47,698 nt of DNA from a virus. Below the pieces are notes generated by a model that did not search any database, had not been told where the DNA came from, and saw only the letters and a program-made list of their open reading frames with translations. The stretch is taken from the IMG/VR virus record IMGVR_UViG_3300020470_000023, positions 1 to 47,698 of that record. One strand, written 5' to 3'. Below are positions 7,948 through 37,646 of the stretch, piece after piece; the stretch's first letter is position 1; each line of letters opens with the position of its first letter. The position numbers and the translations under genes are program-made.

Positions 7948-10900
7948 ATGTCAGTAGAATCCAGAGTAAAAATCAGCTCTTTAGTAGATAATCAACTTCC
8001 TAGTTTTGTTAGGAGTGATTTTCCTTTAGTTGGTGAATTTTTATCACAATATTACCTTTCTTTAGAGGGGCAAGGATCGACTTTAGATATTGTTAAAAAT
8101 ATTGATCAATATATTAAAGTTGATAATCTAACAAACCTTACTGATTCTACTAATCTTTCAGAGAATGTAAAAGTTTCTGATAGTACGATTAATGTTGATA
8201 CTACACTCGGTTTTCCTAAAAGTTATGGTTTAATTCAGATTGATTCTGAAATTATTACATATACGGGAATAACTACTAATTCTTTTACTGGATGTGTAAG
8301 AGGATTTAGTGGAATCACCTCGTTTAGGTCTAATGACAATCCAGATGAGCTTGTCTTCTCTACTAGTGGAATTTCAACTCATTCTTCAGGAGAAGTAGTT
8401 AATAATTTAAGTGTTTTATTTTTAAAAGAATTTTTTAATAAACTTAAAAAGCAAGTAACTCCTGGATTTGAAAATAGGGAATTAAGTTCTAAAATTAATA
8501 AGAATCTTTTTATAAAACAAGCAAAAGATTTCTATTCATCTAAAGGAACAGATGATTCTTATGAAATATTGTTCAGAGCTCTTTATGGTAAAGATGTTGA
8601 AGTAATTAAACCAAGAGATTATCTATTTACTCCATCAGATGCACAATATCAAGTATCTAAGCAATTAGTTGTAAGGTCTATTGAGGGAAATCCTGAAGAT
8701 CTTATTAATCAGACTATATTTCAAGATTTCACTTCTACTGCTAATGGTGCAAGGGGATCTGTAAATAATGTTGAAAAAATTATTAGAGGAACTGAAACTT
8801 ATTATAGATTAAGTTTAGATTATGATTTTGATACTAATAATATTACTGGATTTGGAAAATTTTCTATTCATCCCTCAACAAAACTTATAACAGAAGCTTC
8901 TATTGGAGATACTGTTCTTGATGTAGATTCTACAGTTGGATTTGCTCAATCTGGAAGTTTGTCTGTAGATAATGATAACGGAACAACTTTTAATATTGAT
9001 TATACGTCTAAATCGTTAAATCAATTCTTCGGATGTTCTGGAGTTAGTCAAAATATTAAATCTAAGCAAAATATAAGAATTAATGATCATGCTTATGGTT
9101 ATGTTGGTGTAGGAACAGTTAAAATTAAATTTCAAGTAACAGGTGTTCTACAAGATCTTAAATATTCATCACCAGTTACTTATAGTGATGTTGGTGATAC
9201 TATTAGAGTAAAAACTCTTGGAAGTAATGTAAAAGGACAGTTTGGAAATAATTGGATTTTTAATATTACACCTACTTACAATATAAACGAAGTAGAAACT
9301 ATAAACAACTCAAGTTTTGTTTATTCTATCACTACTGTTGATAATAATATTTTTAATAGAGGTGATAATGGATTAATTATATTAAATGATAGTAGTGAAA
9401 TAAAAGGTGTTATTATATCAGTATTAAACTCAAAAACATTTTATATTCAAGCAGAAACTGTAGTTGATGTTGCAAAAATTTTTAAAGTAAGAAAAACTTT
9501 AGCTAAAGTAGAGGCTGAGAAATATCCAGAATTAAATGACCAAAATGCAAATGTTCAGAACGTATATGTAGATCAACAATCATATTATGTTACATCCCCA
9601 TCTCTTCCAAATTATCTTGACGAACCTATAACAACGACTGATAGGTCTGTTACATTCTCAGGAACGTTTACAGATAGTTTTAATATTGAAATTCCCAATC
9701 ATGGATTATTTTCAGGTGATTCTGTAACTTATGTTGCTGGTTCAGATACCAATAAACTTAATATTGATGAAAAAATATATTATATTAAAAAAGTTGATCA
9801 GAATAATATTAAACTTTGTAAAAGTAGATCTGATGTTGCAGGTAATTTATTCGTCTCTTTAAATGGTGTAGTTGAAGATAATAAATTAGAATTATCTATA
9901 TTTGCAGGTAAAAAATTAGCTTCTCAAAATTTAGTTAGACAAATAAAACCACCAACTAAATCTTTTAAAAAGGTTGAAACTCCTACAGGAGGAAAAACTG
10001 GTATTTTGGTTAATGGTGTAGAAATTAGTAATTATAAATCTGAAGATTATATTTTTAGTGGACCAATTCAAAGTATTGATGTAATTGGTCAAGGTGAAGA
10101 TTTTGATGTAATAAATCCTCCACTTTTAGATATACAGGACCAAGTTGGTTCTGGAGTTTCTGTATTTACTAAAGTTAGTGGAAACTTTAAAAGAATAGAA
10201 CTTGTAAGTACGGGATTTGGTTATGTAGATACTCCTACAGTAAGAATTACTGGGGGTAATGGTACTGGTGCAAAAGCTTTTGCTAAGATGAAGGAAATTA
10301 TTTGGGAAAGAGATTTCATATCAGATAAATTGGATGGTGTTAGATTATCTGAAAATCTTATCATCTTCAAGAGCCCTCATTTATTTGATAATGGAGAACA
10401 TGTAATTTATACTCCAGAAAATCAAAGAGGTATAGTAGGATTAACAACTGATGCAAAATATTTCGCAAGAACTATAGATGCTTTTGCAATATCTCTCCAT
10501 TCATCTAAGATAGATGCTATTGATAATGTTAATCCAATTTCTATATCTGATTATGGTGTAGGTGTTCAAAAATTTAGAACCGCAAACAAGAAAAAAATAG
10601 TAAGTTCTATTGAAGTTGTAAATCCTGGTATTGGATACTGTAATAATAAAACTCTAGTTAAATCTAGTGGAATTACTACTAGTTCTAATATACTTACTAT
10701 CCCTAATCACGGATATTCTACAGGAGAAAAGGTTGTTTATCAACCAACAGGAGTTCCTATAGGTGGTCTTTCTTCAGGAACTTATTATGTTAAAGCATTA
10801 TCAGCATCTACGATTAAATTAGCTGAAGTTGGTGTAGGAGATACTTTATCTAAATTTTATTTGGATAATGAACAATATGTTGGATTCAATTCCACTGGAT

Positions 10901-13900
10901 CTGGGGAGCATATATTTAATTATCCTCCGATACAAGTTTCTATAGATGGAACCATAGGTGTTACAACTTATGCTGGTCAAGATCTTAAAGCTGTTGCTCA
11001 ACCAATTGTTCGTGGAGGTATAACAAGAGTTTTTGTTAAAGATGGTGGAGTTGGTTATGGATCTTCTGATATAATTAATTATAATAGACAACCAGTTTTT
11101 CAAACTGTTACTGGAAAGGAAGCACAATTAGATATAGTTACTAATGGTGGAAGAATTGTTAAAGTTAATATTTTAAATCCAGGTTTGCAATATAATTCAC
11201 CTCCAACATTAAATATCTCTGGAGTTGGTACGGGTGCAATATTAGTTCCTATAATGTCTAATGGAACAATTAGTGCTGTTTCAGTTGCTTCTCCTGGATT
11301 GAGTTATCAGCAAGGAGAATCTGTTGTTAATGTAACCCCATCAGGTAAAGGTGCTGAGTTTAGGAGCAATCCACTATCTTGGAATATTAATAATGTTGAA
11401 AGACTAATACAAACTAAAAAAATTGAAAAAGATGATGGTGTTTTTATTAATGGAATAAATTCCAAGTATGGTATTCAATATACACATGCATTTGCTCCAA
11501 GAGATCTTAGACAAACAGTTTATGGAGTAAAACAGGTAGATGGTAAAGATGTTTTTGTTAATGATCTGTCTCTCAATAATGGAGTAGAGGTAACTGCTAC
11601 TAATCATTCTCCAATAATAGGATGGTCGTATGACGGATATCCAATATATGGACCTTATGGTTATGCAACTCCTGAAGGTGGGTTCGTTAGAATAATGAGA
11701 TCTAGTTATAAAGATCCTAACGATAATATAGAACATAGACCTAATGCATCTCTTTATCCTGCAGGATTCTTTACTCAAGATTATGAGTATAGCCGTGGTC
11801 TTGGAGATTTAGATGAGCATAATGGTAGGTTTGGAATAACTCCAGAATATCCAAATGGAACTTATGCGTATTTTACAACTATTAATCCAAATACAATAGA
11901 ATCAGTTCCACCATTTAAGTATTTTAGAAGACCAATATTCCCTTATATTTTAGGTAGCACTTATTATGGAAATCCTAATGGATATAATTTTGATTCGCAA
12001 TCAAATCAAGAAGATGTTGATTTTAACAATCCTAATAAATTCGATACTTCAGTCCAACCTTTAAGAGTTACTACTCCTTATAATTTAATATCTAATAATA
12101 CCTCTTACGATTTTATTGTAGAATCAGATAAGATTCAACCTCAACTTACAAAAGTAGATGCTATAGGTAAAGGTAAATTAGAGGGTGTTGGAATTATTAC
12201 TGGAGGTCATAGTTATCAATACGGAGATCCAGTTGTTTTTGATAATTTTGATACTGGTGGTACAGGAGCATCTGCATCAGTTAATGCTATTATAGGAAAA
12301 GAAGTACATACTGTAAGTGTTGCTAACAGTTCTTTTTCAAATGTAGAGTTTGTTTCATATGATGTAACTGGTGGGGTAATTGGATATACTACTATTCCTC
12401 ATGGATATAAACATAAAGATATAATAGAAATTGTAGGGTTAAGCACCTCAAGTCAAACAAATGGAATATTGTATTCTGTAGGAATACAAACTAATTTCTT
12501 TACGTTAACATCAGCAGTAGGAAGTACAGTTGCAACTGGTATCGTTACTTATTTTGATGTTGAAGGACATCTTGAACTTCCTTTTATTAGGGAAAATGAT
12601 GTTTTAGGTATAGGTACTGAAAAAGTAAAAGTTCTGGGATCAGATCCAGAATTATCTAGAATTAAAGTTTTAAGAAGTTACGATTCTACTGTAGGAAGTG
12701 CTCATACTGCTTTTTCTTCATTATTACAGAATCCAAGAAATTTTGTCTTTAAAAAGAGAAATAAAACTCCATTAAATTCTAGATTAAATAAACAAATTTA
12801 TTTTAATCCAGTAGATTCTTTATCTGTAGTTTCTTCATCTGGAGTTGGTATTGGCAGCACTTTAATATTCTCTAATCCAGGAACTGGTAGAACTAGTATG
12901 TGGATTCCTTCAAAAAGTGCTTATCTAAAAAATCATAATTTAAATACAGGTGATTCTTTAACATATAATGCTAATTCTGGTACTCCTATTAAAGTTAGAA
13001 TTTCTTCTTCTTCTAGTCCAATTTCATTAACTAACAATCAAGTTTTATATGCTGCTAGGATAACAAAAGATATTATAGGATTATCAACTGTTCAAGTTGG
13101 TCGAGATGCAACTGGATCTTGGGTTGGAGTTTCATCTGAATTTAGAAATTCAAGTCTTTTATATTTTGCTGGAATTGGTACAGGAATGTATCATAGTTTT
13201 GAAACAAATTTTACTAAAAATGTTAGAGGTGAAATTAATAGATTGCAAGCAACTGTTTCTACTGCATCTACTCATGGAATGAAACTTGATGATGGTATTG
13301 CTTTTGTATCACGTCCAGGTATTACTACAACTGTAAGTGTATCATATAATGATTTTAATAGAAGAATTGTTATTAATTCTAGAAATTTTGTTGCTGGTGA
13401 TGTAGATACAACCAATAACACTATTTCTATACAAGAGCATAATTTAAAAACAGGTCAAAAAGTTATTCATACTGCATCCACTTCTTCAGGTGGTTTAGTT
13501 AATAATGGAATTTATTATGTGTATGTTTTTGATTCTAATAAAATTAAACTTGCTAATCATCGACATGAAGTTTCATCTAATAACTTAAAATTTATCAATA
13601 TTAGTAGTGCATCTGCTGGAACAATTTCTCCAGTTAATCCTCCTATCACAATTCGTAAGAATGAAATAATTTATTTTGATCTCTCTGATTCTTCATTATC
13701 TTTCTTAAGAAACTCTATCAACTATCCTGCATTCGAATTTAATTTATATTCAGATTATAGTTTAAGTAGCAAATTCGAATCTACAGGAACTACTGATACA
13801 TTTGAAGTTACTAAATCAGGTAGAATTGGTATTGATACTAATGCTAATTTATCATTAAAACTTAACGATGCGATTCCATCTACATTATATTATACATTAA

Positions 13901-16900
13901 AACCAATAAATTTAGATATTAACCGTGAGGTTAAAAAAGAATTAATTGTTGATAATGAAGTAGAAGATTATAATAGTTTATATCTTCAAAATGATACATT
14001 AACAGGGTCTTATAGAATAAGTGGAATTGGATCTACAACTTTCTCTTTCTCAATTGCAACTTCTCCTAAGAAAGTTGATTTTACTGCTGATGAAGGACAA
14101 TTTAGCTATGTTACAAGTTCACGTACTGCGTTTGGACCTATTGCTAATGTTGTTTTGAATAATGGTGGTAGAAATTATAAAAGATTACCTGGTATTAGTA
14201 CTGTAACTTCAACTCTTGGGGATAAGTCGTTACTAAGTCCTTATAGTTATAGTATTGGAAGAATATCAAAAACAACTATAGAAGATATTGGATTTGATTA
14301 TTCTATTGATAATACTTTAAGGCCACAATTAAAAATTCCTCAACTCTTAAAATTAGAATCATTATTATCTCTCAATCATGTAGGAATTACTTCTGAAGGT
14401 GTAAATTACTTACAAGCACCTACTCTTTTCGTATTTGATGGGATTACTAAAAAAAGAATTACTGATGTTGATTTAAGTTACGAATTAGGTGATAAAAATG
14501 TTACTATAGTGAAAAATACAACAAGCTTGAATAATGTTGTACCTACTATTCTTCCTGTTAATAATTCTAATGGAATATCAATTTCCAATATCTCATTTAA
14601 TAATACGACAAAGGATGTTACTGTTTCTTTAGGTGCAACTTATAGTTCTATTAGTGATTTTCCAGTTACACCTGGAGATAAAATATTAATAGAGAATGTA
14701 AGTGTTGGTGTAGGAAGCACAGGTGTTGGTTACAATTCTAGTGATCATGAGTATTCATTATTTGAGGTTAAAACAACTTCTCCTGATATCGGTGGTGATA
14801 GTCCAACTGTTACTTATAATATTGGTTCTAAACTAAAATCTGGTGAAATTCCTGGTACGTTTAATGTTATTAATCCAGTAGGAACTTTAGTACCAGAAAA
14901 ATATTTTCCAAAATTTGATGTTTCTATACATGATATAAAATTCCTTAAAGGTGAGGAAGTTAATACTGCTAGTTGTAAGGGTCAGGTTGAAAGTTGGAAC
15001 ACAACTACTAATTGTTTAAAAGCTTTTTCAGATAAAGATTTTAGAGTTGGGGAACTTATTATTGGTAAATCCTCTGGTGCTCAAGGAACTATCAAAGAAG
15101 GAAGTTATTATAATGGTTTCTTTGATATAAATTCAAGTTCACTAGTTAGAGAAGGGTGGAAAACATCAAAAGGATTTATCAATGATAATTTGCAAAGATT
15201 GTCAGATAATTTCTACTATCAAAATTTCTCTTATGCAATTAAATCTCAGGTTCAATTAGCAGAATGGGATAATGCTGTTTCTTCTTTAAATCATACTGCA
15301 GGATTTAAAAAGTTTAGTGACCTTGTTATAGAAAATGATACTTTATCAAGTGAATCTGTTCCAAGTGGTATTTCAACATCTCAAAATCAAGGATCCTTTA
15401 GTGGTATAGCTGATTACATTTCTGTAATGGATTTGAATTGCATTTCAGATTTTGATCTAGCATTAGAAAAAACAATCGATGTTGGAAATGATGAATCAAA
15501 AGTTCTTTCTGATAAAATTGTTCTACAATTAAAATCACTTCAAGATTATATCGAATCTATTGGTAACAGGGTATTAGAAATAGATGATATAAGTGGATTA
15601 TTTAATGATAAACCAAGGACTGATGCATTTAATCCAGTAGATTCTTTCTTATTAGAACATGCAAGAGTTAGAAGATATATAGCATTTATTGCTGATAGAA
15701 GATATACTCAAGAAAGACAGATAATGATAGTAACCATATTGCATAATGATTCTGTTGGATATATTAACCAATATGCTTCTGTGGATACTAATGGAGATTT
15801 AGGTCAATTTGATTTTGATGTTGCTGGTACTGAAGGTAGACTTCTTTTCTATCCTACAAAGTATCAATTCAATGATTATAATGTAAGTTCTATGGGTTAT
15901 AATATTGAGGATACTGTTACGGGAATAGGAACTAGAGATCTTGGAGGTTCTGTTCATATTTCTAGTAGTGCTCAAACAATGCCACTTGGATTTAGTACTA
16001 CCACAAATGTAGTAGGAATTGCTTCTACTTATAGAGCAGCAAAAGTTGTTGTTTCTTATGCTGCTAGTGATAAGTCTTATTATGAATGCGATGAAATATC
16101 ATATGTTCATGATGGAAGTCAGGTAGAATTGATGGATTATGGTCAATTATCTACAGATCTCTTATACACCCCTGTAGGGTCTCCAGGACTTGGAACTTAC
16201 AATGCATATCTATCTGGGTCTAATGTCATAATTGACTTCACTCCGACGGTTGCAACTGCCTCTACGATTACTGTAAATACAGTTCATGTTGCTATTGGTG
16301 ATTCTTCTTCTAGTGGAGTAGGAACTGCTCTTTTAAATACTGGAAGATTGGATTCTAGAATTACATCAATATCTGCTAGTGGATCACCTACAACAAATGT
16401 TGTAGCCAAATATCCTAAGAATACCTACAGTTCTGCATATTATATTGTTGCTCTTGAAGATACTACTAATAATGAATATCAAATATCTGAGATAGCACTA
16501 GCAGATGATGGTTCTACTCCATATTTAACTGAATGGGGAGTAATTGATACTGGTGCTGGTATTGGAACATTCTATGCAAATATTGCTGGTGATTATACTC
16601 AACTTACCTTTACCCCTATAGCAAATGCTAATGTTGAAGTTAGAGTATTTCAGAATACTATGGGTAATGTTGATACGAGTATTAATGAGTTGAATAGAAT
16701 TGATTTAGAAAATGCATCTATAGAAACTGGATATGGTGTGTATGAAGGTACAGAAACTGATGTTAAACGTGCATTTGATCTTACTCATAACGAAACTCCA
16801 ATTTTCAAAAGAGGATTTGTTGGAAGTGCTGCAACTATTGTTAATGTAGCAGCAAATACAATAAGAATTCCTGGTCATTTCTATGTTAGTGGAGAAGAAT

Positions 16901-19900
16901 TAACATATACACCAGCAGCATCAGGAACGACTGCAAATATAGGTATTGTAACTGCTACTATTCCAGGTGTTGGTTCTACAGATAAACTTCCAGAAACAGT
17001 ATATGCTGTTAAGGTAAATGATTCTACCATTAAATTAGCAGCAACTGCAGAGGATGCATTAAAGGTAGTTCCAAGTCCTCTTACTCTTTCTGCTGTAGGT
17101 GTGGGAACTACTCATTCATTTACTGCGAAGAATCAAAATGCAAGAGTAATGGTGAGTATTGATAATGTAATACAATCACCATTAGTTTCTAGTGCAGTAA
17201 CTTCTAGTTTAAATGCAGAGGCTTTGCAGGTAGATGATAAAATTGAATTGGTAGGAGTAACATCTTTCTTTGGGGGAGATTTGATTAAGATTAATGATGA
17301 GATAATGAGAGTAGATTCTGTAGGATTTGGAAGTACAAATGTATTCTTAGTAAAACGTCCTTGGATGGGTACAGGAATTGCTACACATGCTGCTGGATCT
17401 TTAATAACTAAAATCAATGGAGGATATAATATTGTTGATAATACGATTAATTTCTATACTGCACCATATGGTTTGACTCCTCTTTCTACTACATCAAATG
17501 AACCCGATAATGTTGATTGGGTGGGAGTATCTACATCATCAACATTTAATGGAAGATCATTTATCAGATCTGGTACACCTGGAACAACACAAGAACCATA
17601 TAGTAAAAATCATATTTTCGATGATATTTCTTCAGGATTTACTGGATTTACTACTACATTTACTTTAACTTCTGATAAATCTAATGTTAGTGGAATATCT
17701 AGTAGTAATGCTATTATTCTTACTAATCAAATTTATCAAGGTCCAAAACGTTCTTCTGTCGTAAACGTAATTGGAAACTATGGATTAATAGAACAATCAG
17801 GTATCACTAGTATTCAATACACTGGATCGGCTTCTTCTGTTGGATCTGATCCTAATACCGCAAGTGTTCCTGTTGGTGGAGTAATTATTTCTGTAGGATC
17901 TACTCATGGAACTGGATACCAACCATTAGTAGCTGCTGGTGGTACTGCTATTGTTTCTGGATTAGGAACTATAAGTTCTATTAGTATAGGTAGTAGTGGA
18001 TCAGGATATAGAGCTGGTATTCAGACAGTTGTAAATGTTGGAGTTCAGACTGCAAGTACAGGATTACCTGCTATTGAATTTATAGGAACTGCTGCTATAA
18101 GTAATGGTAATATTGTAAGTGTTGCAATTACAAATCCAGGAACTGGTTATACTACATCAAATCCACCAGATGTTGTATTTGATAGTCCACTTTCATATTC
18201 AAATGTTCCATTAGTTTATAGTTCAGGATCATCTGGTGTTGGAACTGAAGCAAAAGTAGATATAGTTGTTGGACAAGGATCTAGTGTAATTGACTTTACT
18301 TTAACTAATACAGGTTATGGTTATGGTCAAGGTGATGTGTTGACAGTAGATATTGGAGGAATTTCTGGAATACCTACTTCAGGAACATTCAAACCATTTG
18401 AAATTGATATTCAAGAAACATATACAGATAGTTTCACTGGATGGACTGTTGGTGATTTCCAAGTATTCGATCCATTAGATAATCTATTTGACGGATCTAA
18501 TACATCATTTGCTTTAACAGTCAATAACGTTCAAACTGCAATTAAGTCTAGAGAAGGATCTGATATTAAAGTTGATATTGCTTTATTAGTATTCATTAAC
18601 GATATCTTACAGGTTCCTGGTCAAGGTTATATTTTTGATGGTGGTAGTTACATTACATTTACAGAACCACCTAAAGTAGGAGATACTTCAAAAATAGTTT
18701 TTTATAGAGGAACTGGTGATATTGATACTAGAGAAGTTGATATATTAGAAACGATTAAAGTTGGGGACAATGTAAGATTGCAAGACGATAATCAATTCTA
18801 TGATGAATTGAATAGAAGTGTTACTAAAATAAATTCTACTGATACTATAACAACCAATATTTACCCTGGTCCTGGTATTAATACTGATCAATCTTATAGT
18901 AGAGCATTATACTGGTGTAAACAAACTGAGGATAGATTTATTAACAATAATAGTGTTCCTAAAACAAGAACGGAACTTGAAACCTTAGTTTATCCTAATA
19001 CAAATTTAATACAACCAGTAGGTCTTGGTTCTACAGTAATATTTGTTGAAAATGTAAAAACCTTCTTTGATAGTTCTAAAGAAAATTATAATGCTCAAAA
19101 TAAAGTAAGAATAGCATCTCAGGATACAATTGTAGGAGCAATTGGTACTGCTATTGTTTCATCTGCTGGTACTATTACCTCTATTAGTGTTTCTAATATA
19201 GGACTTGGTTATACAGTAGCACCTGATGTTATTATTGGTACTTATAATTTATTTGATACTCAAGTTGTTGGGTTACAAACTTCCGATGTTTTGACAAGAG
19301 ATTATGGTTTCCGTATTAGAGAACCTGGATCTGGAACTGGTGATAATGGAGGATTTGCTTTTGGTACGAGTTATCTTGCTGGAGATAGTAATTCTAGTGA
19401 TAGATGGGCTACTTTAACACCAGTTGATACTACAGGGGCTAGATCAATAACTATCCGTGCTTGGAGAGGTGATGATACTAATGGAGGTGAAGCACCTGAT
19501 TATGATCATGGAACAGTTCCTGGTGGAGGAGAAGGAGGAGAAAGTTTGGTTTTATTCTATCAAACTCCTACAATGCCTTCTGCCCTAAGAATTGATGTAA
19601 ATCCTACTACATTAGTAGGAACAGGAAATACTGATGATTATATTCTTATTACTGCAGGAAAATCTAATACATCTACAGGAACAAGTCCTGCTCCACTAGA
19701 TTATACTTTACCTTTACCTGAATATGCTAGAGTTGGTATTGTTAGTTTCTCCTTTAGAGCAGTAGCAGATCCTGGTTATCCAAGTATCTATGATCACTAT
19801 GGTATAGAAAAGGTAACATTCTCAACTGGAATAGCTCCTGCTACTGCAACTGCTACTATATCTTCTGGATCTATTGATGCGGTTACAGTTTCTTATGGTG

Positions 19901-20523: not shown

Positions 20524-20534
20524 TAAATAAGTAA
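20519..20534 (+). promoter_or_regulatory. Late promoter motif for gene 8
   Basis: ATTAATAAATAAGTAA (ATAAATA core at 20523-20529) overlaps the stop of the giant gene and is base-for-base the same 16-mer found before gp25. The gp8 ATG lies 20 bp past the core. Confidence 0.7.
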
Positions 20535-20549
20535 AAAAGTCTAATAAAA

Positions 20550-22109: not shown

Positions 22110-22115
22110 AGAATC

Positions 22116-25100: not shown

Positions 25101-28100
25101 AATGAAACTTGTGTTTCTAATATTGTTGATATTAGACCTAGAGTATCTGATTTTTCAGGAACATCATATTCTCCTTTTGAATTTTTAGGTAGAAACTTTA
25201 CTGCAGATGGAAATTCAGCAGCAAATATTTTAGCATCAGATCAATCTATAGTATTAGATTATTCTTTCTATCTGCCAAGAGTTGACAGAATATTCTTATC
25301 GAAGCAAGGTAATTTCCAATTAGTTAATGGAATTCCAGCAGAAACTCCAGAATTGCCCGTCAGAATTGACGATGCACTTGAAGTTGCAAAAGTAGTATTG
25401 CCAGCATATTTGTGTGATATTAATGATGTTAGTATTACTTTGACTGATCATAAGAGATATCAGATGAAAGATATCCATAAATTAGAAACAAGAATTAAAA
25501 ATTTAGAATTTTATACTTCTCTTTCTGTTCTTGAAAGTGATACCGCAAATCTAGAAATTCGTGATGTTGATGGATTGAATAGATTTAAATCTGGTTTCTT
25601 TGTAGATGATTTTTCTAATACTGATACTCAAATTAAAAAGACTATTAATAAAAATAGTATTGATTTTAAAAATGGAGAATTAAGACCTGCTGCTTTTTGC
25701 ACCGAACTTGATTTGCAAGTAGAGAACATAAGTAACGGAATTAGAAAAACAGGTAGAACTTTAACTCTTGACTATGATGAATCGGTTCTAATAAATCAAC
25801 CCTATGCTACTAGAACGGAAAATGTTACTCCATACTTGGTTAATTATTATTCAGGTGCTATTGAACTAAATCCTTGTTCTGATTGTTGGGTTGAACAAAT
25901 TGAATTAGCACCACAAAGAGTAGAAGTAGAAAATTATACATCTACATTAGTACAAACTGCAGATGGTGATTTTCATTGTGGTATGGATAATGTAATTTGG
26001 GATGCATGGAGTACCGTATGGACTGGTCATGATGTAAATGAAACTTACGTAGATGAATGGGTAATTAACACTGAATTGAATAGAAGAGAAAAAAGAAGAA
26101 CAACGACTACAACATCAACAAGAACAGGAACAAGAACTAGACAAGGAGTTTATAATCATATTAGAGAAGTTATTACTGATACAAGCCAAGGTAATGTAGT
26201 ATTGGCAAAGGAAATTATTCCTTACATGAGATCTAGGAATGTTGAATTTAATGCAAAACGATTGAAACCAGGAACTCGTCTTTATGGTTTCTTTGATGGG
26301 GAAGATATGAACAAATATATCATTCCCAAACTTCTTGAAATTACAATGAAGTCTGGTGTATTTGCGGTAGGAGAGACAATTGTAGGTAAAACATTAGATG
26401 GTGTGGAATTGATTAGATTTAGATCAACTGTATCTAATCATAGATCTGGACCTATAGATAATCCAAATACTTTCTATTATAGAAATCCTTATAATAGAGC
26501 TGAGAATATACCATCCAGTTATTCAGCAACTAGTGAAATTTTAAATGTTGACACTGATGGACTTGCGGCTAAAGCTATTGGAGATTTTCATGGTTATGTT
26601 CTACCTGGAATTCAGTTGGTAGGTCAAACCTCTAATGCTCAAGCAGAACTTAATCAAGTAAGATTAGTAACTGATCAAATTGGTAGTGTTATAGGATCTT
26701 TCTATATTCCTACACCCAATGTAGCAGAAAATCCAAAATTTGAAACTGGAATGAAGATGTTTAGGTTGACTAGCAGTAATGTTAATAGTCAACTTCCTGG
26801 TAATATTTTAACTGATGCATCACAGTCTTATGAAACTGCTGGAGTTTTGAGTAAAAATAGAGAAAATATATTATCTTGTAGAAATATAAATCATGAAAGA
26901 CAAGTACAAACTGAGACTGAAGCAATTACTGGACAAAGTACTGTAACTGTAAATACTACGGTATTAGAATCACAGCCACTACCATCACCACAACCACCAC
27001 CAGAACCAGTACCACAACCACAACCAGTACCAAATCCAGTACCAGTACCAAATCCAGTACCAGTACCAGTACCAAATCCAGTACCTGTTTATGCTCCAGT
27101 AATACCTGAACCAGAACCAATTCCAATTCCAATTCCAGTACCAATACCAAATCCAATACCAATTCCAATTCCAGTACCAATACCAGTACCAACAAGTGCT
27201 ACTCAAGTCTATATGACTATCTCACAGCATGATGTTGAAGGTGGAATAGATTACACTGATCAAAATGATGGAACACCATCAACTAAGAATAAGGTAATTG
27301 CATATGTGCAAGGTTTATATAAGAATGAATTGGGTATTATTCCTGATCAACAAGGTGAAAATTGGTGGGTAGACCAAGCTATGGGTGTTATTGATAAGGG
27401 TGGATCGTTGGAAGATGGACTTGCTGATATGGAATGGTCATTTATGAATGATATAAATGTGAAAACTTTTGGTGCAACTGCTAATGATGGTGTAGCAGTA
27501 TTTGCTTCAACTGATGTTAGTGATGTTAATGAGGATGCTGCATATACTGGTGCTGAAGTTGCTGGTGCTAATGCACTTGTTCAAACAGTAGATGGTTCAG
27601 GAACTATAATTACCAATACAGCAACTGATACTAGGTTTGATACTGGAAAGGCTACTGCAGGAGAGTCTACTCAAGATGAAATGTGGGCAGCACAATTAAC
27701 AACTGCTTATAAGGTTTTTGCACCTGCATCTCAGATAGAAGGTGACAAATTAGAGACTCAAGTTCAAGGTTGGATTGATTACTTAAATTCAGGAGATCAT
27801 GGTGGAATTGAAGCTGCTATGGCAACTGTTAAGAATCATACATGGAATACTGATGCTGATAAGGATATGCAAAATGCACCTGCATGTAATGCTGGTGAGA
27901 CAGATCCATTAGCACAATCCTTCTTTGTAAATGAACCTAATGGAATATTTGTTACTAGAATAGAGGTATTCTTTAGTTCTAAAGATGATCATCTTCCTTG
28001 TGTTGTTCAACTTAGACCAATGCAACTTGGTTTACCAACGAATCAAGTTTATCCATACAGTGAAGTAACCTTGGAAGTTGATGATATTGTTACATCAACA

Positions 28101-30371
28101 GATGCTTCTGTTCCAACAACAGTTGTATTTGAAGCACCTGTATACTTGGCTGGTGGACAATATCATTCTGTGGTTCTTCTATCTCAGAGTAATAATTATA
28201 GAGCATGGATTTCAAGAATGGGTGAAACTGATGTTCAAACTGTAAATGCTCCAGTTGATGAACAAATTGTTGTTTCTCAGCAACCTTTACTAGGATCTTT
28301 ATTCAAATCACAGAATGGAGTAACTTGGAATGCAAGTCAATATGAAGACCTTAAATTTAAACTTTATAGAGCTAATTTCAAATCATTTACAGGAACAGTT
28401 AACTTCACTAATCCAGAATTAACAACAGTAAGTGATTTCATTAAACCACTTCCAAAAGATTCTTTAGAAATATCTTCTAATAAAATTAGAGTTGGTTTAA
28501 CCACTGTTTTGAATGATACTGCATTAACTTTAGGTAATACAATTAGACAGCAAGGAACAAATGCTACTGGAAATTATGTTGGTTCTGCAGGAACTGCTAC
28601 TGGAGCATTAACGTTAACTAATGCTGGTATTGGGTATACTCCTTCTAGTGGATCTACTACATTCAGTAACGTTTCTCTAACAACATTAACTGGTAGTGGT
28701 AGAGATGGGAAGGCAAATATAACTATCACTAATGGTGTTGCAGTTGCAGCAACAGTATCTCAAGGTGGATATGGTTATGTTGTTGGAGATGTATTAACAG
28801 CACCTACAGTCGGTGTTACTTCTCTTGGAACTAATTTAAGATTATCTGTAGCATCTCTTTCTGGAACTAACGAATTAATTATTGATAATGTTCAAGGTGT
28901 ATTTGAAACTGGTTCTGGAAAATATCTTAAGTATGATAATAATGTAGGTGTTACTACTACTTTAAATGGAGAATTTAGTGGAAATGTTCTTCTTTCATCT
29001 GCTCCTGTAGAAATTTCTGATGGGTTGCATATTAAAGTGAATCATTTAAATCATGGAATGTATTCTACTCAGAATTCTGTATCTATTGATGGAGTTCAAT
29101 CTGATATTCCTGCTACCATATTAACGACAGAATATGATGCATCTGCTGTTGGATCATTCTCTGTTGAAGATGCAAGTGAATTTACTACTTTTGAAAATGT
29201 TGGAGTAGGAACGACTAATATTGGTTATGCAATGGTTGGTGATGAACTTATCTCTTATACAGGTGTTTCTGGTAATAGTCTTACTGGAATAACAACTAGA
29301 GGTATTGATGGAACTATTCCACAACTTCATCCTATAAATTCATCTGTTAGAAAATATCAATTATCTGGTGTTTCTTTAAGAAGAATTAATAAAAATCATA
29401 ATTTAGCTGATGCTACAGTAACTAATCCAATAGGATTGGATTACTACAATATTAAGATAGATACGTCTGAGAATGGTTTAGATAGATCTTCTGGAGTATC
29501 TACTTATCCTTCACTTCACTTTAATGAAGCAGGTTCTATTGGTGGATCCTTTATCAAGTCTACTGAAAATATACCTTTTGAAATTGTTAGACCTATTGTT
29601 GAAAACATTACTCCTGTTGGAACTAATGTTAATGCTCAAATTAGAACTGTTACTGGAAGTAGTATTGGTGGATCAGAAACTCCATTTGTGGAAAAACCAT
29701 TTGAGACTATTAGTTTGACTAGCAATAATTATCTAAATTCACCTAGAATGATTGCTTCTCGTCTTAATGAAACAACCTCATTACCAAACATTGTAAATAA
29801 TAGATCATTTACAATGAATTTAGAATTATTCACTGGAGAATTGTCACTTTCTCCAATGGTTGATTTGGATAGAGTTGCAGTAATTCTTGCATCTAATAGG
29901 GTTAATAATCCCATTACAAATTATGTAACTGATAATAGAGTTTCTACTCTAATTGATGATCCTAATGCCTTTGTATATGCTTCTGTTCCTGTTTCTTTAG
30001 AGAATCCAGCAACTGCTATTAAAATTTACATGACTGGGCATATTAATCTCTTTAATGATATTAGAGCTTTCTATGCGATTAGTAATGATCCTAATGAAGA
30101 GTTTGTTTACAATCCATTCCCTGGACATACAAATCTCCTTGAAAGTGGACAGGTTATAAATCCAGCAAACAATAATGGTTTACCTGACAAGTTGATTCCT
30201 AAAACAGATAAACTTGCATATATAAGTCGTGAAGTAGAATATAAAGATTATGAATATACTATTGATAATCTTCCTAGTTTCAGATACTTTGGAATCAAAC
30301 TTATAGGAACTTCTACGAATAAAGCTAATCCTCCAAGGGTTAAAGATTTGAGAGTAATCGCACTTGCATAA
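22116..30371 (+). CDS. Giant DUF4815 virion protein (2751 aa), gp9/gp10 region
   Basis: The N-terminus is a clear DUF4815 region (YFDDFDPRKNYYKTLFKPGF, then QARELTGLQSTLQNQIERFG). Conserved later blocks include DLQYNELAKEFARRTADESG, NPCSDCWVEQIELAPQ, EIIPYMRSRNVEFNAKRLKP, TDPLAQSFFVNEPNGIFVTR and a C-terminal end RVKDLRVIALA. This family sits where T4 has genes 9-12 and is a baseplate/tail-fibre structural protein. A proline-rich tract of about 75 residues (about 1619-1694) leads into an insert (about 1697-1918). The insert has a DUF4214-like helix pair (YVQGLYKNELGIIPDQQGEN) and lies directly before the conserved DPLAQSFFV block. Gly-Tyr bead units occur at about 2165-2245. It is probably an outer baseplate or receptor-contacting component. 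Confidence 0.85.
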   Translation: MPQETNLNVSPYFDDFDPRKNYYKTLFKPGFPVQARELTGLQSTLQNQIERFGGHLFKEGSSVTGGGVKYNNAFPTVRISTSFSGVSVSRYLNQILDKNLRGATSGVRAQVKAYLNKASLPGQPYTLFVNYLDASAGTDEGETFIPGEELILEGQIATKNVIIQNGEGCATVSTIDNAISIGSGAVLSGGVYFVRGYFIDVPEQSIILEPFSTRPSYKIGLEVFEEIINSDIDSTLADNASGFNNYNAPGADRLKIRVYLTKKSIDNVGAISNFIELMEVREGVIVSSEKDLQYNELAKEFARRTADESGDYYVTPFTITPKNTLNDFKGNKGIFSETQLTYNNQTPSDDLGTYKLSPGKAYVKGYEVETVTPSFIDFKKPRTTKLLENQSLNYVTGPTFGLNRVSGSPNLGISTTYTLSLRDQRIGSSGIAAAGKEIGIARVYDFALESGSYDAVNPNTNQWDIALYDVQSYTDITVNTNVTLTTPTHIKGKSSGAKGFLRYDVSAGTALTAYNVQGRFIPGEQFIFNGIESGNIANTITNYSSSDAKSVYGIVGTAYTFNADVKQSVLSNFGQVSISAASGGVSTVTSTDPAKFFTGITTVGNIVSYGNTGINEETFSRITSVSQRSLVITGMTTVTGVCDGALPGNLINPSNFKILTSNFQSSSNNTLYTEFPKEHVSSVDLSDSHLTVKKQYEVNISSNSTGAISSGDADLTFLPYDEELYTLIRKDGTTENLSSDKFSYGSGGSTITIGGLASGSGPAKLIATLRKIKVESKIKDIKKVNTLTISNSKYSQSGIGATTLNDGLSYSAIYGTRVQDEDISLNVPDVTKIHGIFESRNASAPSLPTITLANLNGPTAKTQDLLQGEEFIGTKSNAIGVYVSRVNDSKINYISLNQNEFVSGEVITFRDSRISGLFSTKTVGSNNIIKNFTFDNGQKDTIYDYSKIVRNSDVKEPSKQLTIVFESAYFDSSDNGDITTINSYDAFNYCSLPKINETCVSNIVDIRPRVSDFSGTSYSPFEFLGRNFTADGNSAANILASDQSIVLDYSFYLPRVDRIFLSKQGNFQLVNGIPAETPELPVRIDDALEVAKVVLPAYLCDINDVSITLTDHKRYQMKDIHKLETRIKNLEFYTSLSVLESDTANLEIRDVDGLNRFKSGFFVDDFSNTDTQIKKTINKNSIDFKNGELRPAAFCTELDLQVENISNGIRKTGRTLTLDYDESVLINQPYATRTENVTPYLVNYYSGAIELNPCSDCWVEQIELAPQRVEVENYTSTLVQTADGDFHCGMDNVIWDAWSTVWTGHDVNETYVDEWVINTELNRREKRRTTTTTSTRTGTRTRQGVYNHIREVITDTSQGNVVLAKEIIPYMRSRNVEFNAKRLKPGTRLYGFFDGEDMNKYIIPKLLEITMKSGVFAVGETIVGKTLDGVELIRFRSTVSNHRSGPIDNPNTFYYRNPYNRAENIPSSYSATSEILNVDTDGLAAKAIGDFHGYVLPGIQLVGQTSNAQAELNQVRLVTDQIGSVIGSFYIPTPNVAENPKFETGMKMFRLTSSNVNSQLPGNILTDASQSYETAGVLSKNRENILSCRNINHERQVQTETEAITGQSTVTVNTTVLESQPLPSPQPPPEPVPQPQPVPNPVPVPNPVPVPVPNPVPVYAPVIPEPEPIPIPIPVPIPNPIPIPIPVPIPVPTSATQVYMTISQHDVEGGIDYTDQNDGTPSTKNKVIAYVQGLYKNELGIIPDQQGENWWVDQAMGVIDKGGSLEDGLADMEWSFMNDINVKTFGATANDGVAVFASTDVSDVNEDAAYTGAEVAGANALVQTVDGSGTIITNTATDTRFDTGKATAGESTQDEMWAAQLTTAYKVFAPASQIEGDKLETQVQGWIDYLNSGDHGGIEAAMATVKNHTWNTDADKDMQNAPACNAGETDPLAQSFFVNEPNGIFVTRIEVFFSSKDDHLPCVVQLRPMQLGLPTNQVYPYSEVTLEVDDIVTSTDASVPTTVVFEAPVYLAGGQYHSVVLLSQSNNYRAWISRMGETDVQTVNAPVDEQIVVSQQPLLGSLFKSQNGVTWNASQYEDLKFKLYRANFKSFTGTVNFTNPELTTVSDFIKPLPKDSLEISSNKIRVGLTTVLNDTALTLGNTIRQQGTNATGNYVGSAGTATGALTLTNAGIGYTPSSGSTTFSNVSLTTLTGSGRDGKANITITNGVAVAATVSQGGYGYVVGDVLTAPTVGVTSLGTNLRLSVASLSGTNELIIDNVQGVFETGSGKYLKYDNNVGVTTTLNGEFSGNVLLSSAPVEISDGLHIKVNHLNHGMYSTQNSVSIDGVQSDIPATILTTEYDASAVGSFSVEDASEFTTFENVGVGTTNIGYAMVGDELISYTGVSGNSLTGITTRGIDGTIPQLHPINSSVRKYQLSGVSLRRINKNHNLADATVTNPIGLDYYNIKIDTSENGLDRSSGVSTYPSLHFNEAGSIGGSFIKSTENIPFEIVRPIVENITPVGTNVNAQIRTVTGSSIGGSETPFVEKPFETISLTSNNYLNSPRMIASRLNETTSLPNIVNNRSFTMNLELFTGELSLSPMVDLDRVAVILASNRVNNPITNYVTDNRVSTLIDDPNAFVYASVPVSLENPATAIKIYMTGHINLFNDIRAFYAISNDPNEEFVYNPFPGHTNLLESGQVINPANNNGLPDKLIPKTDKLAYISREVEYKDYEYTIDNLPSFRYFGIKLIGTSTNKANPPRVKDLRVIALA

Positions 30372-30372
30372 T

Positions 30373-30973: not shown

Positions 30974-30976
30974 ATA
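30970..30976 (+). promoter_or_regulatory. Late promoter motif for gene 13
   Basis: ATAAATA overlaps the stop codon of the upstream gene and lies 21 bp before the gp13 ATG. Confidence 0.6.
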
Positions 30977-30997
30977 TCTAAAATAGTAGATGAGTAA

Positions 30998-31852: not shown

Positions 31853-31856
31853 GATC

Positions 31857-33245
31857 ATGGCACTAAATCCATATTTTTTGCAAGGATCTTCTAACGAACA
31901 ATCGTTAGTTCAAAGTTTAATAAACGAACAACTCAAAATGTATGGAGTTGAAGTTTATTATATTCCTAGAAGATATATTACTAAAAAAACAGTAATAAAG
32001 GAAGTTATTGAATCTAAATTCGATAATGCTCTTCCTATAGAAGCATATGTAGATACCTATGATGGTTATGAAGGTCAAGGAACTCTTCTATCTAAATTTG
32101 GAGTTCAATCTTTAAATGATCTAGGATTAATTATTTCTAGAGAAAGATTTGAAAGTTATATTACCCCATTAATAAAGAATTTACCCAATATAGAACTTGC
32201 TACTAGACCAAAAGAAGGTGATTTGATATATTTCCCATTAGGTGATAGGTTATTTGAAATTAAATTTGTTGAGCATGAAAAACCATTTTACCAATTAAAG
32301 AAAACTTATGTTTATGAATTACGTTGCGAACTCTTCCGTTATGAGGATGAGGTTCTTGATACTGGTATTGATACTGTAGATGATAATGTTCAAGAGTTTG
32401 GTTATATTGAAACTTTAAATTTAGTAGGAACTGCTTCTACAGCAACTGCTACTGTATTGGGAATAGGAACTACAGGAGGTGTACAGCAAATTTACATCTC
32501 TAATAGAGGTCATGATTATACATCATCCCCAGTAGTTGCTATTTCATCTGCACCATCTGGTGGAGTTACTGCTGTTGGATTCTCAACATTAATTTCTTCA
32601 ATCATAGATTGTGATGGAATGAAATCCTCAAAGGTTCAAGGAGTTCAATTAACCAATCCAGGTTATGGGTATACTTCTAGACCATTGATAGTATTCAACG
32701 GTGGTGGAGGGGCAGGAGCAGCAGCTACAGTGGCAATAGCTGATGGGGTTATAGGTATTGTTACCTTAACTAATCAAGGATCTGGATACTCTACTGTACC
32801 AACAGTGACCTTTAGTGGAGCACCTGGTACGGGAGTAACTGCTACAGGTATTGCTCATCTTAATAGTGTTGGTATTGTTACTCAAATTGGAATAACTAAT
32901 GCTGGATTGGGATATACTGTTGCACCAACCGTTACTATATCTTCACCGTATATGGAAAATAGTGGAGATTATGTATTTAATGAAGAAGTGATAGGATCTA
33001 TAAGTGGTGCAAAAGCAAGGGTTAAGTCTTGGAATTCTACTACTAATTCATTAGAAGTTTCTATTGCTACTGGTGAATTTACGAATGGAGAATTAGTTAC
33101 TGGTCAAGAATCAGGAGCAAAACATCAATATAGAAAAGTTTCTGAGGAATTTTCTAAGGATACTTTTGCAGAAAATAATGAAATTGAGACTGCAGCAGAT
33201 GCTATAATTGACTTTTCTCAAAGTAACCCATTCGGAATGCCCTAA
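31857..33245 (+). CDS. gp14: Neck protein gp14 with inserted bead domain
   Basis: The N-terminal 180 residues fit gp14 (NPYFLQGSSNEQSLVQSLIN; GVEVYYIPRRYITKKTVIKE; YDGYEGQGTLLSKFGVQS). At 462 residues it is far longer than T4 gp14 (256). The excess is mainly at about 182-367: four Gly-Tyr units (NRGHDYTSSPVVAI; NPGYGYTSRPLIVF; NQGSGYSTVPTVTF; NAGLGYTVAPTVTI). A C-terminal module about 368-430 (ARVKSWNSTTNSLEV; FTNGELVTGQESGA) also has a relative in the giant gp7-position protein. gp14 forms the tail-proximal neck ring; the beads would face outward from the neck (inference). Confidence 0.92.
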   Translation: MALNPYFLQGSSNEQSLVQSLINEQLKMYGVEVYYIPRRYITKKTVIKEVIESKFDNALPIEAYVDTYDGYEGQGTLLSKFGVQSLNDLGLIISRERFESYITPLIKNLPNIELATRPKEGDLIYFPLGDRLFEIKFVEHEKPFYQLKKTYVYELRCELFRYEDEVLDTGIDTVDDNVQEFGYIETLNLVGTASTATATVLGIGTTGGVQQIYISNRGHDYTSSPVVAISSAPSGGVTAVGFSTLISSIIDCDGMKSSKVQGVQLTNPGYGYTSRPLIVFNGGGGAGAAATVAIADGVIGIVTLTNQGSGYSTVPTVTFSGAPGTGVTATGIAHLNSVGIVTQIGITNAGLGYTVAPTVTISSPYMENSGDYVFNEEVIGSISGAKARVKSWNSTTNSLEVSIATGEFTNGELVTGQESGAKHQYRKVSEEFSKDTFAENNEIETAADAIIDFSQSNPFGMP

Positions 33246-33248
33246 ATA
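33242..33248 (+). promoter_or_regulatory. Late promoter motif for gene 15
   Basis: CTAAATA overlaps the gp14 stop and lies 29 bp before the gp15 ATG. Confidence 0.55.
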
Positions 33249-33277
33249 TTTTATCAGGTAGTGTACCGAGACTTTAA

Positions 33278-34279: not shown

Positions 34280-34281
34280 CT

Positions 34282-34698
34282 ATGACACAAAAATTTGATA
34301 AACTAGATAAAACTTTTAATGTTACTCCAGAAGTGGAAGTAATGAAAGAAGATGCTGTTATTAAAAAAGAAAAACCAGATAGATTAGCTAAAGATGATAT
34401 AACAAGGGATTATGAGTATACTCGTGGCAATCTTTATAGTATAATAGAGAAAGGTCAGGAGGCTATTGATGGTATTCTTGAACTTGCTCAAGATAGTGAA
34501 ATGCCAAGAGCATATGAAGTTGCTGGACAACTTATCAAGAGTGTTTCTGATGCTACAGACAAGTTGATGGATCTTCAGAAAAAACTTAAGGATGTGGAAG
34601 AGGAATCTTCAAAAAGACCAACTAATGTAACCAATGCATTATTTGTTGGTTCTACTGCGGAACTTTCCAAACTTATAAAGAAAAGTGGGGAAAAATGA
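34282..34698 (+). CDS. gp16: Small terminase subunit gp16
   Basis: The 138-residue, mostly helical product is a little shorter than T4 gp16 (164). Family-like segments are DDITRDYEYTRGNLYSIIEK (central helix start), GQEAIDGILELAQDSEMPRA and YEVAGQLIKSVSDATDKLMD, forming the central coiled coil that makes the ring oligomer. gp16 recognises phage DNA and stimulates the gp17 motor. Its TGA overlaps the ATG of the next gene (ATGA at 34695-34698). Unusually, a 4-kb block of virion genes separates it from gp17. Confidence 0.9.
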   Translation: MTQKFDKLDKTFNVTPEVEVMKEDAVIKKEKPDRLAKDDITRDYEYTRGNLYSIIEKGQEAIDGILELAQDSEMPRAYEVAGQLIKSVSDATDKLMDLQKKLKDVEEESSKRPTNVTNALFVGSTAELSKLIKKSGEK

Positions 34699-37646
34699 CC
34701 GAAGATCTAAATGAGTTTTTTTCCTCTATAGGGAAAGCTAAAAAAGAAAAAGAGGATGAACTTAAGTCTATTATAGGAGACGTAAGTATAGATTCTATTT
34801 TTTCTGAAGCTTCAAAGGAAGTAGTAAAAGATAAGAAGAAAAAGGAAGAAAAGGAAATAGAAAAAAAGAAAAAATTAGAAAAGGAAAAAAGACAAACAAA
34901 AGCACTTGAGGAATGGTTATATTCAGATACAAAAACAGAAGAAACAAACTATAAGCAAAGAGATAAAGAGTTAAAGAAAACAAGTGTTGCAAGAAATGAA
35001 AGATATAAAGATCTTCATAAAAAAACAAGTAATACTAATGTAGATGTAAATGAAACAGATGATTATAAGGAGTTAGAAAAGGAAATATCAAGTAAGAAAA
35101 AACCTTCTAAACCAGCAGTAAAAGAAATAAAGGAGGAAGATGATAGTGTAGATAAAGCACTTAAGGCATTAGAGAAAGTTAAAACAAAGGAAGAAGTAAG
35201 AGAGAATATAAATGATCCAGAGATTGTAAAAATTAGAAGTGAATTAGAATATCTTAAAAATCTTGTCAATGCACAAGGTGGTGGGGGTGAAGTAAGGTTT
35301 GAATTTTTAGATGATGTTAATAGAAATTCTGTAAAGACTGATGGATATCTAGTTGCATATGATAGTACAACTGGAAAGTTTATTGGAACTACTACTTCTC
35401 CTGATGCTGAACCATCAGCATGGGTAGTTGGAAGTGCTGGAATTCATACAACCAAAAATGTTGGTATAGGAACCACCGCAAGAGCAGATACAACTTTATA
35501 CATTCAAGGTGATATTTTTACCACAGGTAATATCTCTGCTGCTGGAACTGTAACTTATAATGATGTAGAAAATATAGATTCTCTTGGTATTATTACTGGT
35601 AGGAGTGATCTTTATATTGGAGGTAATGCTAGAGTAGTCGGTGTTATAACTGCTGCTAGTTATGTTGGTGATGGATCAGGATTAACTGGTGTTGGAGGTG
35701 GGAAGTTTGCATCAAATGCTACAGGTATTAATACATCTTCCAATGTTGGAATAGGAACTACAACAGCATCTAGTGCGTTAACTGTTAGTGGGGATGCTTA
35801 TATTTCAGGTAATGCTAGAGTCGTTGGAGTGATGACTGTTGGTTCAGCATCTGTAACGATTGATGGTGATAATAATCAGGTTAGTGTTGGTATTGTTACT
35901 GTTAGTAGTACTCAAATTATAGTTGGTGATAGTGTAAGTATAGGTTCCTCTGCTTCTGGTATTAACTCTGCACCTAATGTTTTATATGTGGCAAAGGATG
36001 GTATAGATACAAATAACGGAACATCTATAGACAATGCAAAGTTAACAATTGCATCTGCTGTTGGGATTGCACAATCAGGAACAACAATTAAAGTTCTTTC
36101 TGGAAATTATGTTGAACAGAACCCAATCGAAGTTCCTGCATTTGTTGCTATTGTTGGAGATGATCAAAGAACTGTAAAAGTTCTTCCAAATACTGCTACC
36201 AAAGATTTATTCCATGTAAGGAAAGGATGTAAGTTGGCAAACATGACATTTAGTGGACATCTTTCGCCTGCTGCTGCAGTTGGTTTTCCTACCACTGAGA
36301 TAGCAGAAAATGTGGGTGGTGGTAAATGGAAAGGACCATATGTTCAGAACTGTACAAGTGATACGACAACGGGAACTGGTATTCGTATAGATGGAGATCA
36401 AGCAAGATCATTGAAAGCAATGAATGTTGATGCATATACTCAATACAATCAAGGTGGTGTTGGTGTTGCTGTAACTAATGGAGGATTTGCTCAGTTAGTT
36501 TCTCTATTTACTATTTGTTGTGATGAAGCAGTTACTTGCGATAAGGGTGGTCAAGCAGATATTGCAAATAGTAATTGTAGTTTTGGTACTTTTGGATTAG
36601 TTGCAAGAGGAACAGGAGATCTACAATTCTCAGGAGTAGTTACTTCTACGGCAGCTGCGTCTCAGGATAATATTACAATTAATATAAGTACACCAACTAT
36701 CAATATATCAGGTTTTGATTATACCCATACAACTGGGATTGCTACTATTACTACAAGTTCAGATCATGGATTTGTTGTTGGTATGGGTGTTACTCTTTCT
36801 AGTATTTTATTAAATTGTACATACGGCAACAAAACATATCCACATAAGAATCCATATATCTTTGAAGTTGATGAAATACCAACTTCTAGAAAGTTTGTTG
36901 TTAATGTTGGAATATCTACTCTTGCTCATACCTATGTTTCTGGTGGGACTGCAAAGGTTGATATTGATAGACCTTATGATGGACAAGCAGTTTATTTTGA
37001 TACGTTATTCAAATCAGTAGAAACTATTACTGTATCGAATGGAGGAAGTGGTTATACATCTACACCTACCATAACTGTGGCAGATCCTGCTGGATCTAAC
37101 GGTGAAACTGCTACAGCATTTGCTACTCTTGATGGTGATAGTATTTCTACTATTACAATGATTAGTAGTGGAAATCAATATACTTCAACTCCAAGTGTAA
37201 CTATTAGTGGAGGAGGTGGATCGGGTGCGTCTGCAGTTGCTAATATGTCTCCGATTTATTACACAATAAATAGTTCAAGCCCAGTAGTATCTGGAATCAC
37301 AACTTTGACATTAGATGAAAATCTAATCAATTCAGTAGGAATTGGATCTACAGCATATTTCTATCAACTTAGTAGAATTGTTGCTAGTTCACATACTTTC
37401 GAGTATGTTGGTTCAGGAAACACTATAACAATAGCAACTCCTAAAAGAGGAGGAGTTACTGTTCAGGCAAATGAAGTTGTAACGCAGAATGGTGGTAAGG
37501 TGGTTTATACCAGTACCGATCAATCTGGTAATTTTAGGATAGGTGATGGATTACAAATTAATCAGAATACTGGTACAATTAGTGGAAGATCTTTCACTAA
37601 GAGTTTATTTTCTGAAATGACACCATTTATTTTAGCACTAAGTTAA
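34695..37646 (+). CDS. Fibre-like virion protein with coiled-coil base and beta-helix (983 aa)
   Basis: Residues 1-200 are highly charged (long Lys/Glu runs such as KKKKEEKEIEKKKKLEKEKR) and should be a long coiled coil. Next come fibre-type repeats (TTKNVGIGTT; NARVVGVITAASYVGDGSGL; a second NARVVGVMTVGS). From about 431 a right-handed beta-helix of the pectate-lyase-like type begins (LYVAKDGIDTNNGTSIDNAK; VLSGNYVEQNPIEVPAF; LFHVRKGCKLANMTF). Two Gly-Tyr bead units lie at about 780-850. A conserved C-terminus (YTSTDQSGNFRIGDGLQINQ, ending SLFSEMTPFILALS) closes it. It is probably a neck or tail fibre/spike that reads host glycans; attachment site and ligand are not known. It is translationally coupled to gp16. 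Confidence 0.75.
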   Translation: MTEDLNEFFSSIGKAKKEKEDELKSIIGDVSIDSIFSEASKEVVKDKKKKEEKEIEKKKKLEKEKRQTKALEEWLYSDTKTEETNYKQRDKELKKTSVARNERYKDLHKKTSNTNVDVNETDDYKELEKEISSKKKPSKPAVKEIKEEDDSVDKALKALEKVKTKEEVRENINDPEIVKIRSELEYLKNLVNAQGGGGEVRFEFLDDVNRNSVKTDGYLVAYDSTTGKFIGTTTSPDAEPSAWVVGSAGIHTTKNVGIGTTARADTTLYIQGDIFTTGNISAAGTVTYNDVENIDSLGIITGRSDLYIGGNARVVGVITAASYVGDGSGLTGVGGGKFASNATGINTSSNVGIGTTTASSALTVSGDAYISGNARVVGVMTVGSASVTIDGDNNQVSVGIVTVSSTQIIVGDSVSIGSSASGINSAPNVLYVAKDGIDTNNGTSIDNAKLTIASAVGIAQSGTTIKVLSGNYVEQNPIEVPAFVAIVGDDQRTVKVLPNTATKDLFHVRKGCKLANMTFSGHLSPAAAVGFPTTEIAENVGGGKWKGPYVQNCTSDTTTGTGIRIDGDQARSLKAMNVDAYTQYNQGGVGVAVTNGGFAQLVSLFTICCDEAVTCDKGGQADIANSNCSFGTFGLVARGTGDLQFSGVVTSTAAASQDNITINISTPTINISGFDYTHTTGIATITTSSDHGFVVGMGVTLSSILLNCTYGNKTYPHKNPYIFEVDEIPTSRKFVVNVGISTLAHTYVSGGTAKVDIDRPYDGQAVYFDTLFKSVETITVSNGGSGYTSTPTITVADPAGSNGETATAFATLDGDSISTITMISSGNQYTSTPSVTISGGGGSGASAVANMSPIYYTINSSSPVVSGITTLTLDENLINSVGIGSTAYFYQLSRIVASSHTFEYVGSGNTITIATPKRGGVTVQANEVVTQNGGKVVYTSTDQSGNFRIGDGLQINQNTGTISGRSFTKSLFSEMTPFILALS

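Follow-up and report, generated by a model that had tools for sequence, protein, structure and literature searches.

Our analysis of a 47.7-kb virus record with the structural genes of a marine T4-like phage (the window, by which we mean this whole stretch of DNA) showed that several virion proteins with no other relationship share a short protein repeat. This unit is genuine and somewhat under-described. Its copies are passed on vertically, each at its own site, and they already occupied these sites before the cyanophage genera separated. On balance, we favor the reading that these units form a family of beta repeats kept at fixed sites in virion proteins by vertical inheritance, with a predicted beta module in the neck protein gp14, and that the family probably acts as a surface spacer or decoration.

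The genes of the window run in the order gp6, a gene for a 4,191-residue protein at the gp7 position, gp8, a gene for a DUF4815/VrlC-type protein, gp13, gp14, gp15, gp16, a gene for a fiber-like protein, and gp17 to gp21; P-TIM68 and S-SM2 have the same structural gene order. Because its gp14 shares 59% identity with the gp14 of Prochlorococcus phage P-TIM68 and 58% with that of S-SM2, we place the window phage with the Kyanoviridae. Taken as a whole, the window represents the structural module of a T4-like cyanophage near these two phages. The window genes and units located below lie on the plus strand.

The repeat unit and its host proteins

The repeat, about 35 residues long, is a 34-residue unit with the consensus IQAITITNPGSGYTSAPTVTISGGGGSGATATAI; its hallmark is GxGY followed by P, and each unit is predicted to have about three beta strands. 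We seeded a profile from the visible units and iterated it over 15 reference phages and the window until convergence. Over all reference ORFs, 91 matches reached 10 bits or more, whereas five shuffles produced 0. Applied to the window, this general model recovers five units in the gp7-position protein, four in gp14, and two each in gp8 and the fiber-like protein. As a control for circularity, the model was rebuilt with each gene omitted in turn (leave-one-gene-out), which left 27 to 31 bits for the fiber units, 5.5 to 24 bits for the gp7 units and one half-unit for gp8. A model made from gp14 only still detected four gp7 units, at 11.7 to 26.3 bits, as well as the fiber units, at 28.7 and 29.7 bits, and with it 50 shuffled window proteomes yielded nothing above 9.2 bits.

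A sequence-only reading of this DNA had placed the motif in five virion proteins. A common module in otherwise unrelated proteins is supported, and the coordinates first given for it were correct to within a few to tens of bases; the five hosts are not equally firm. Three of them, gp14, the fiber-like protein and the gp7-position protein, are secure and stand out strongly from the shuffles, gp8 is weaker and a likely host, and the DUF4815 protein is a marginal one.

The fiber-like protein (983 residues; 34695 to 37646; phrog_17885 tail fiber, E = 1.4e-152) holds a pair of units in the stretch that had been claimed for it, strongly confirmed at 37017 to 37121 (37.5 bits; 27.4 bits in leave-one-gene-out) and 37143 to 37241 (38.7 and 30.6 bits). 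The gp7-position protein (an ORF at 7948 to 20523) matches phrog_2885, baseplate wedge subunit, with an E-value of 0, and the genes at the equivalent place in P-TIM68, S-SM2 and P-SSM2 are named gp7 or baseplate wedge subunit. It has at least five units: b at 10192 to 10284 (RIELVSTGFGYVDTPTVRITGGNGTGAKAFA; 37.6 bits, 24.0 bits with gp7 omitted from the model), d at 11155 to 11253 (IVKVNILNPGLQYNSPPTLNISGVGTGAILVPI; 36.4 bits, 14.4 in leave-one-gene-out), e at 11269 to 11364 (ISAVSVASPGLSYQQGESVVNVTPSGKGAEFR; 25.7 bits, no match with gp7 omitted), f at 18112 to 18189 (IVSVAITNPGTGYTTSNPPDVVFDSP; 10.3 and 9.9 bits, in a slot with a total of 56 units) and h at 19174 to 19236 (ITSISVSNIGLGYTVAPDVII; 12.7 and 11.4 bits, slot total 60 units). 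A half-unit lies at 10600 to 10638 (VSSIEVVNPGIGY; 5.5 bits with gp7 omitted), and a weak unit i at 19873 to 19962 (IDAVTVSYGGTGYFQSEPP...) reaches 5.6 bits with the seed model and has 47 units in its slot among relatives. The earlier count of about a dozen gp7 units holds only if partial copies are included, five being above threshold and several half-units being visible. The gp7 units of relatives map to the same positions, that is, to fixed slots. The same protein contains a YHYH domain (PF14240, E = 2.4e-27; residues 1215 to 1318, window positions about 11590 to 11901), which is a predicted metal-dependent hydrolase of phage tails (PMC7824862).

In gp8, a baseplate wedge protein of 519 residues (20550 to 22109; PF09215, E = 3.5e-18; phrog_438, E = 2.4e-160), the general model matches a divergent unit a at 21192 to 21296 (20.7 bits; slot total 80 units) and a unit b at 21312 to 21413 (29.6 bits). 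With gp8 omitted, these two matches shrink to a single half-unit of unit b (VDSVTISKGGSGYT; 9.3 bits). They sit where the cyanophage and pelagiphage proteins exceed T4 gp8 in length; the structure prediction of gp8 was poor (mean pLDDT, 47.9). The weakest host is the DUF4815/VrlC-type protein (2,751 residues; 22116 to 30371; PF16075, E = 2.4e-58; phrog_358). Its divergent and marginal unit pair at 28602 to 28853 scores 23.4 and 23.8 bits only with the pair itself in the seed model; the early seed model included these units, so these scores are not independent. The window pair is lost in leave-one-gene-out, residues 2166 to 2175 reach 5.0 bits under the gp14-only model, and six relatives have DUF4815 units at the same two places with 8.7 to 10.9 bits. 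Elsewhere in this protein, a tandem proline-rich repeat (PVPNPVPVPNP, in 12- and 18-base steps; 26945 to 27204) is likely a linker.

A generic Gly/Tyr/Pro-rich beta-hairpin might have arisen separately in these genes, which would make the units, above all those of gp8 and DUF4815, nonhomologous. The weak scores of these two proteins once they are omitted from the model would fit such convergence, as would the chance matches of G-rich profiles to P-loop proteins. However, the gp14-only model detects the gp7 and fiber units far above the shuffles, and whole-protein PHROG profiles cross-match, gp7 to phrog_460 (E = 3.3e-19) and gp14 to several virion, baseplate and fiber families (down to about 4e-15). 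We consider convergence quite unlikely.

The array in gp14

The neck protein gp14 (head closure Hc2; 462 residues; 31857 to 33245; PF11649, E = 2.2e-31) bears the clearest array, and the four units that had been read in it are strongly confirmed at 32481 to 32582 (41.6 bits), 32634 to 32738 (47.9 bits), 32760 to 32852 (40.8 bits) and 32877 to 32948 (27.6 bits), the last lacking its final strand. Alignment with T4 and relatives divides the protein into a T4-like core (residues 1 to 175), the unit array (about 190 to 370), a second beta module (375 to 428) and a conserved tail to residue 462. The PF11649 core is present in all 39 aligned gp14 sequences, and profile residues 2 to 173 match gp14 in the PDB (E = 1.3e-33); T4 gp14 itself (PDB 9mkb, 9lu4 to 9lu7), homologous to the window protein in its core, has 256 residues and is without the unit array. 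The array is inserted after the T4-like core and before the C-terminal tail, whose motif DxIxDFTExNPFG also occurs in HTVC008M, a phage without the gp14 array.

This insert is dispensable, being present in some orthologues and absent from others. It has four units in the window and seven named relatives and two in S-ShM2 and S-B64, and it is missing in HTVC008M, S-B68 and T4 by alignment and scans. On a partly unresolved tree of gp14 cores, its presence and absence need three changes, which is an upper estimate; S-CAM7 was scored as array-less there despite degenerate units at that place (14.1 bits; 94343 to 94414).

AlphaFold2 predicted residues 190 to 425 of gp14 mostly with pLDDT values of 80 to 93, as an all-beta region with about three strands per unit; the core was poorly modeled. 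A Foldseek search of this model against the PDB matched the core to T4 gp14 and gave no convincing solved fold for the array, and a single-protein sequence search of the PDB with the array gave weak FlgE matches only. Neither Pfam nor NCBIfam has a match within the array of the window gp14 or its aligned relatives, and in the proteins scanned neither has a model covering the unit.

The C-terminal region of T4 gp14 touches gp15 where head and tail join (PMC12270204), and an insert there would therefore lie at the neck. It could be internal to the joint; our favored reading would have it face outward. The 762-residue gp14 of S-SSM7 (L004, 34704 to 36989) has a Laminin_G_3 lectin-like domain at residues 323 to 448, inside the unit array (E = 7.6e-6, slightly under the Pfam cutoff), and we counted this domain in favor of an exposed site.

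We also observed a second shared module, SGAxARVxSWN...GEFxxGExVxGxxSGA, located 3' of the gp14 array (32979 to 33140). With a gp14-only model it is found in the gp7-position protein as well (14977 to 15093; 20.3 bits) and faintly in the DUF4815 protein (26328 to 26390; 9.7 bits), and 50 shuffled window proteomes gave no match of 8 bits or more.

Inheritance and distribution of the units

The shared motif had been taken to mean that units moved or were copied between genes and that they would favor recombination between these genes. We compared the units of the window, of the reference-phage loci and of 160 IMG/VR loci retrieved with gp14 and gp8, assigning each to a gene by BLAST after the units had been masked and to a slot by its position; the IMG/VR loci are those that matched the window's own proteins best, and 34-residue units are too short for deep branches. 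The nearest neighbor was a unit in the same slot of another phage for 792 of the 826 units (9% are expected at random), a unit of the same gene for 809, and a unit of the phage's own genome for none. When neighbors at least 70% identical were removed, these numbers became 702, 745 and 1. Cross-gene identity showed no excess for same-phage over different-phage pairs (-0.0012, with a null standard deviation of 0.0020; 914 pairs), and different slots of one gene showed none within over between phages (0.0000; 1,012 pairs). The named reference phages alone gave cross-gene identities of 0.331 within and 0.330 between phages, with the nearest neighbor in the same phage in 4 of 92 cases (8.2% expected), and a smaller, earlier version of the neighbor analysis agrees. 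In the DNA itself, unit segments of the window share exact runs of at most 13 bases, and across genes the most similar 45-base stretch has 73% identity.

The units cluster by gene and slot, which argues against recent spread. At the sampled depth there is no trace of movement between genes, and the short DNA matches speak against the proposed recombination. Recent or continuing gene-to-gene copying, with a homogenized repetitive coat and recombination hot spots as its outcome, has the shared motif itself in its favor and nothing else; with no nearest neighbor in the same phage, no homogenization and no long DNA match, it is refuted at this depth, and we rate it as highly improbable overall. 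Because the neighbors are same-slot units, identity has no within-phage excess and the longest DNA match is so short, we conclude that the units were inherited in place. Gene-to-gene copying, if it ever happened, predates the genera sampled, and the unit is an old shared building block, not a spreading module.

How the unit first came to reside in several genes is a separate question, on which its wider distribution bears. Of the 15 records covered by whole-genome scans, 14 contain units, with 6 to 22 matches in each cyanophage and none in T4; HTVC008M has two matches, one of them strong (E = 1.8e-5). In P-SSM2 and S-SKS1, units also occur in tail-fiber genes outside the structural block, and in S-T4 they occur in a putative major tail protein gene. 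When one array served as a tblastn query, 349 out of 50,697 phage records matched, and 338 of these are named Synechococcus, Prochlorococcus or Cyanophage; phages of Stenotrophomonas, Pseudomonas and Xanthomonas matched as well, and the predicted-structure matches include proteins of uncultured Caudovirales and Sylvanvirus. An earlier genome scan found a single Pedosphaera MAG, in which an RCC1-repeat protein (L177, 1897 to 4863) has four units of up to 39.5 bits; therefore, the unit also occurs outside phages.

A further likeness, which we treat as a lead, is to the tailspike Dpo31 of a marine podovirus (PDB 28lx, 28mg, 8ck1; PMC13317679). In its D3* domain, region 425 to 513 aligns with gp14 units 2 to 4 (E = 5e-4) and has two xITIxxxGxGY motifs at a spacing of about 40 residues; with the unit model a Dpo31 fragment scores above all 2,000 shuffles. 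However, D3* is one domain in a left-handed beta-helix tailspike, and its similarity to the gp14 units is weak: a single-unit profile searched against the PDB did not recover Dpo31 and gave chance matches only, mostly P-loop proteins.

Two histories could precede inheritance in place, and each is possible, if on the doubtful side. An ancestral unit may have been duplicated from gene to gene in an ancestral phage and then diverged in place. The presence of the unit in neighboring structural genes and its scarcity outside cyanophages, as judged from the records matched by one array query, would suit such an ancient spread. However, no copying trace is left, related units do occur outside cyanophages, and cross-gene identity is about one third, equal within and between phages; the spread event, if real, therefore predates the genera examined. 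We give similar weight to separate capture, in which the virion genes independently acquired a common environmental repeat that is also found in other phages and bacterial proteins. The Pedosphaera RCC1 protein, the matches in Stenotrophomonas, Pseudomonas and Xanthomonas phages, those in uncultured Caudovirales and Sylvanvirus proteins, and the podovirus tailspike that may hold two units all point this way, but no donor can be named, and the short units carry too little deep-branching signal.

Proposed role and meaning

Phage Ig-like domains are beta-rich modules that are inserted within, or appended to, virion proteins of differing function and are present or absent between relatives; they are thought to be located on the surface and to bind carbohydrates weakly. 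The unit arrays resemble these decoration domains in being beta-rich modules (in the gp14 model) that are present or absent among orthologues. Unlike Ig-like domains, the unit is a 34-residue tandem repeat at conserved slots of core neck and baseplate proteins, and the phage Ig-like domain models of Pfam and NCBIfam gave no match to the array.

Returning to the reading we favor, the units, often in tandem pairs or fours, appear to occupy fixed sites in the neck, baseplate wedge and fiber proteins of marine T4-like phages. Tandem units are predicted, from gp14 only, to fold into a compact beta module that would extend the host protein beyond its conserved core. Most likely, such a module is a structural spacer or decoration outside the neck and baseplate, similar to phage Ig-like domains, and it may weakly contact sugars of the host surface. 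Its surface position and function are drawn from this likeness and the gp14 model, and a common virion surface coat made of the units, as the sequence-only reading had suggested, is plausible. A bolder version holds that most marine T4-like cyanophages have, over their neck, baseplate and fibers, a common outer layer that binds sugars and is made by an undescribed repeat family from separately fixed, structurally equivalent modules; this we regard as unlikely.

The unit matters for annotation too. Several PHROG families of cyanophage neck, baseplate and fiber profiles (460, 701, 708, 2885, 5342, 17885, 19630 and others) cross-match via the unit, but these families represent whole proteins, and the unit is not described there as a domain; our search of the open-access literature found no published account of the repeat in cyanophages. 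The gp7-position protein of pelagiphage HTVC008M (I899_gp055; L091, 33435 to 36485) is labeled "head closure Hc2," and the real gp14 of this phage is a separate gene (I899_gp074; L096, 10846 to 11718). The shared unit within whole-protein families is the likely cause of this label, and hence the unit appears to mislead annotation.

In summary, the negative result on copying is a caution that shared motifs in one genome do not show recent recombination. Abundant ocean viruses commonly carry the unit, which has been without a domain model; such a model would tidy the naming of their neck, baseplate and fiber genes.
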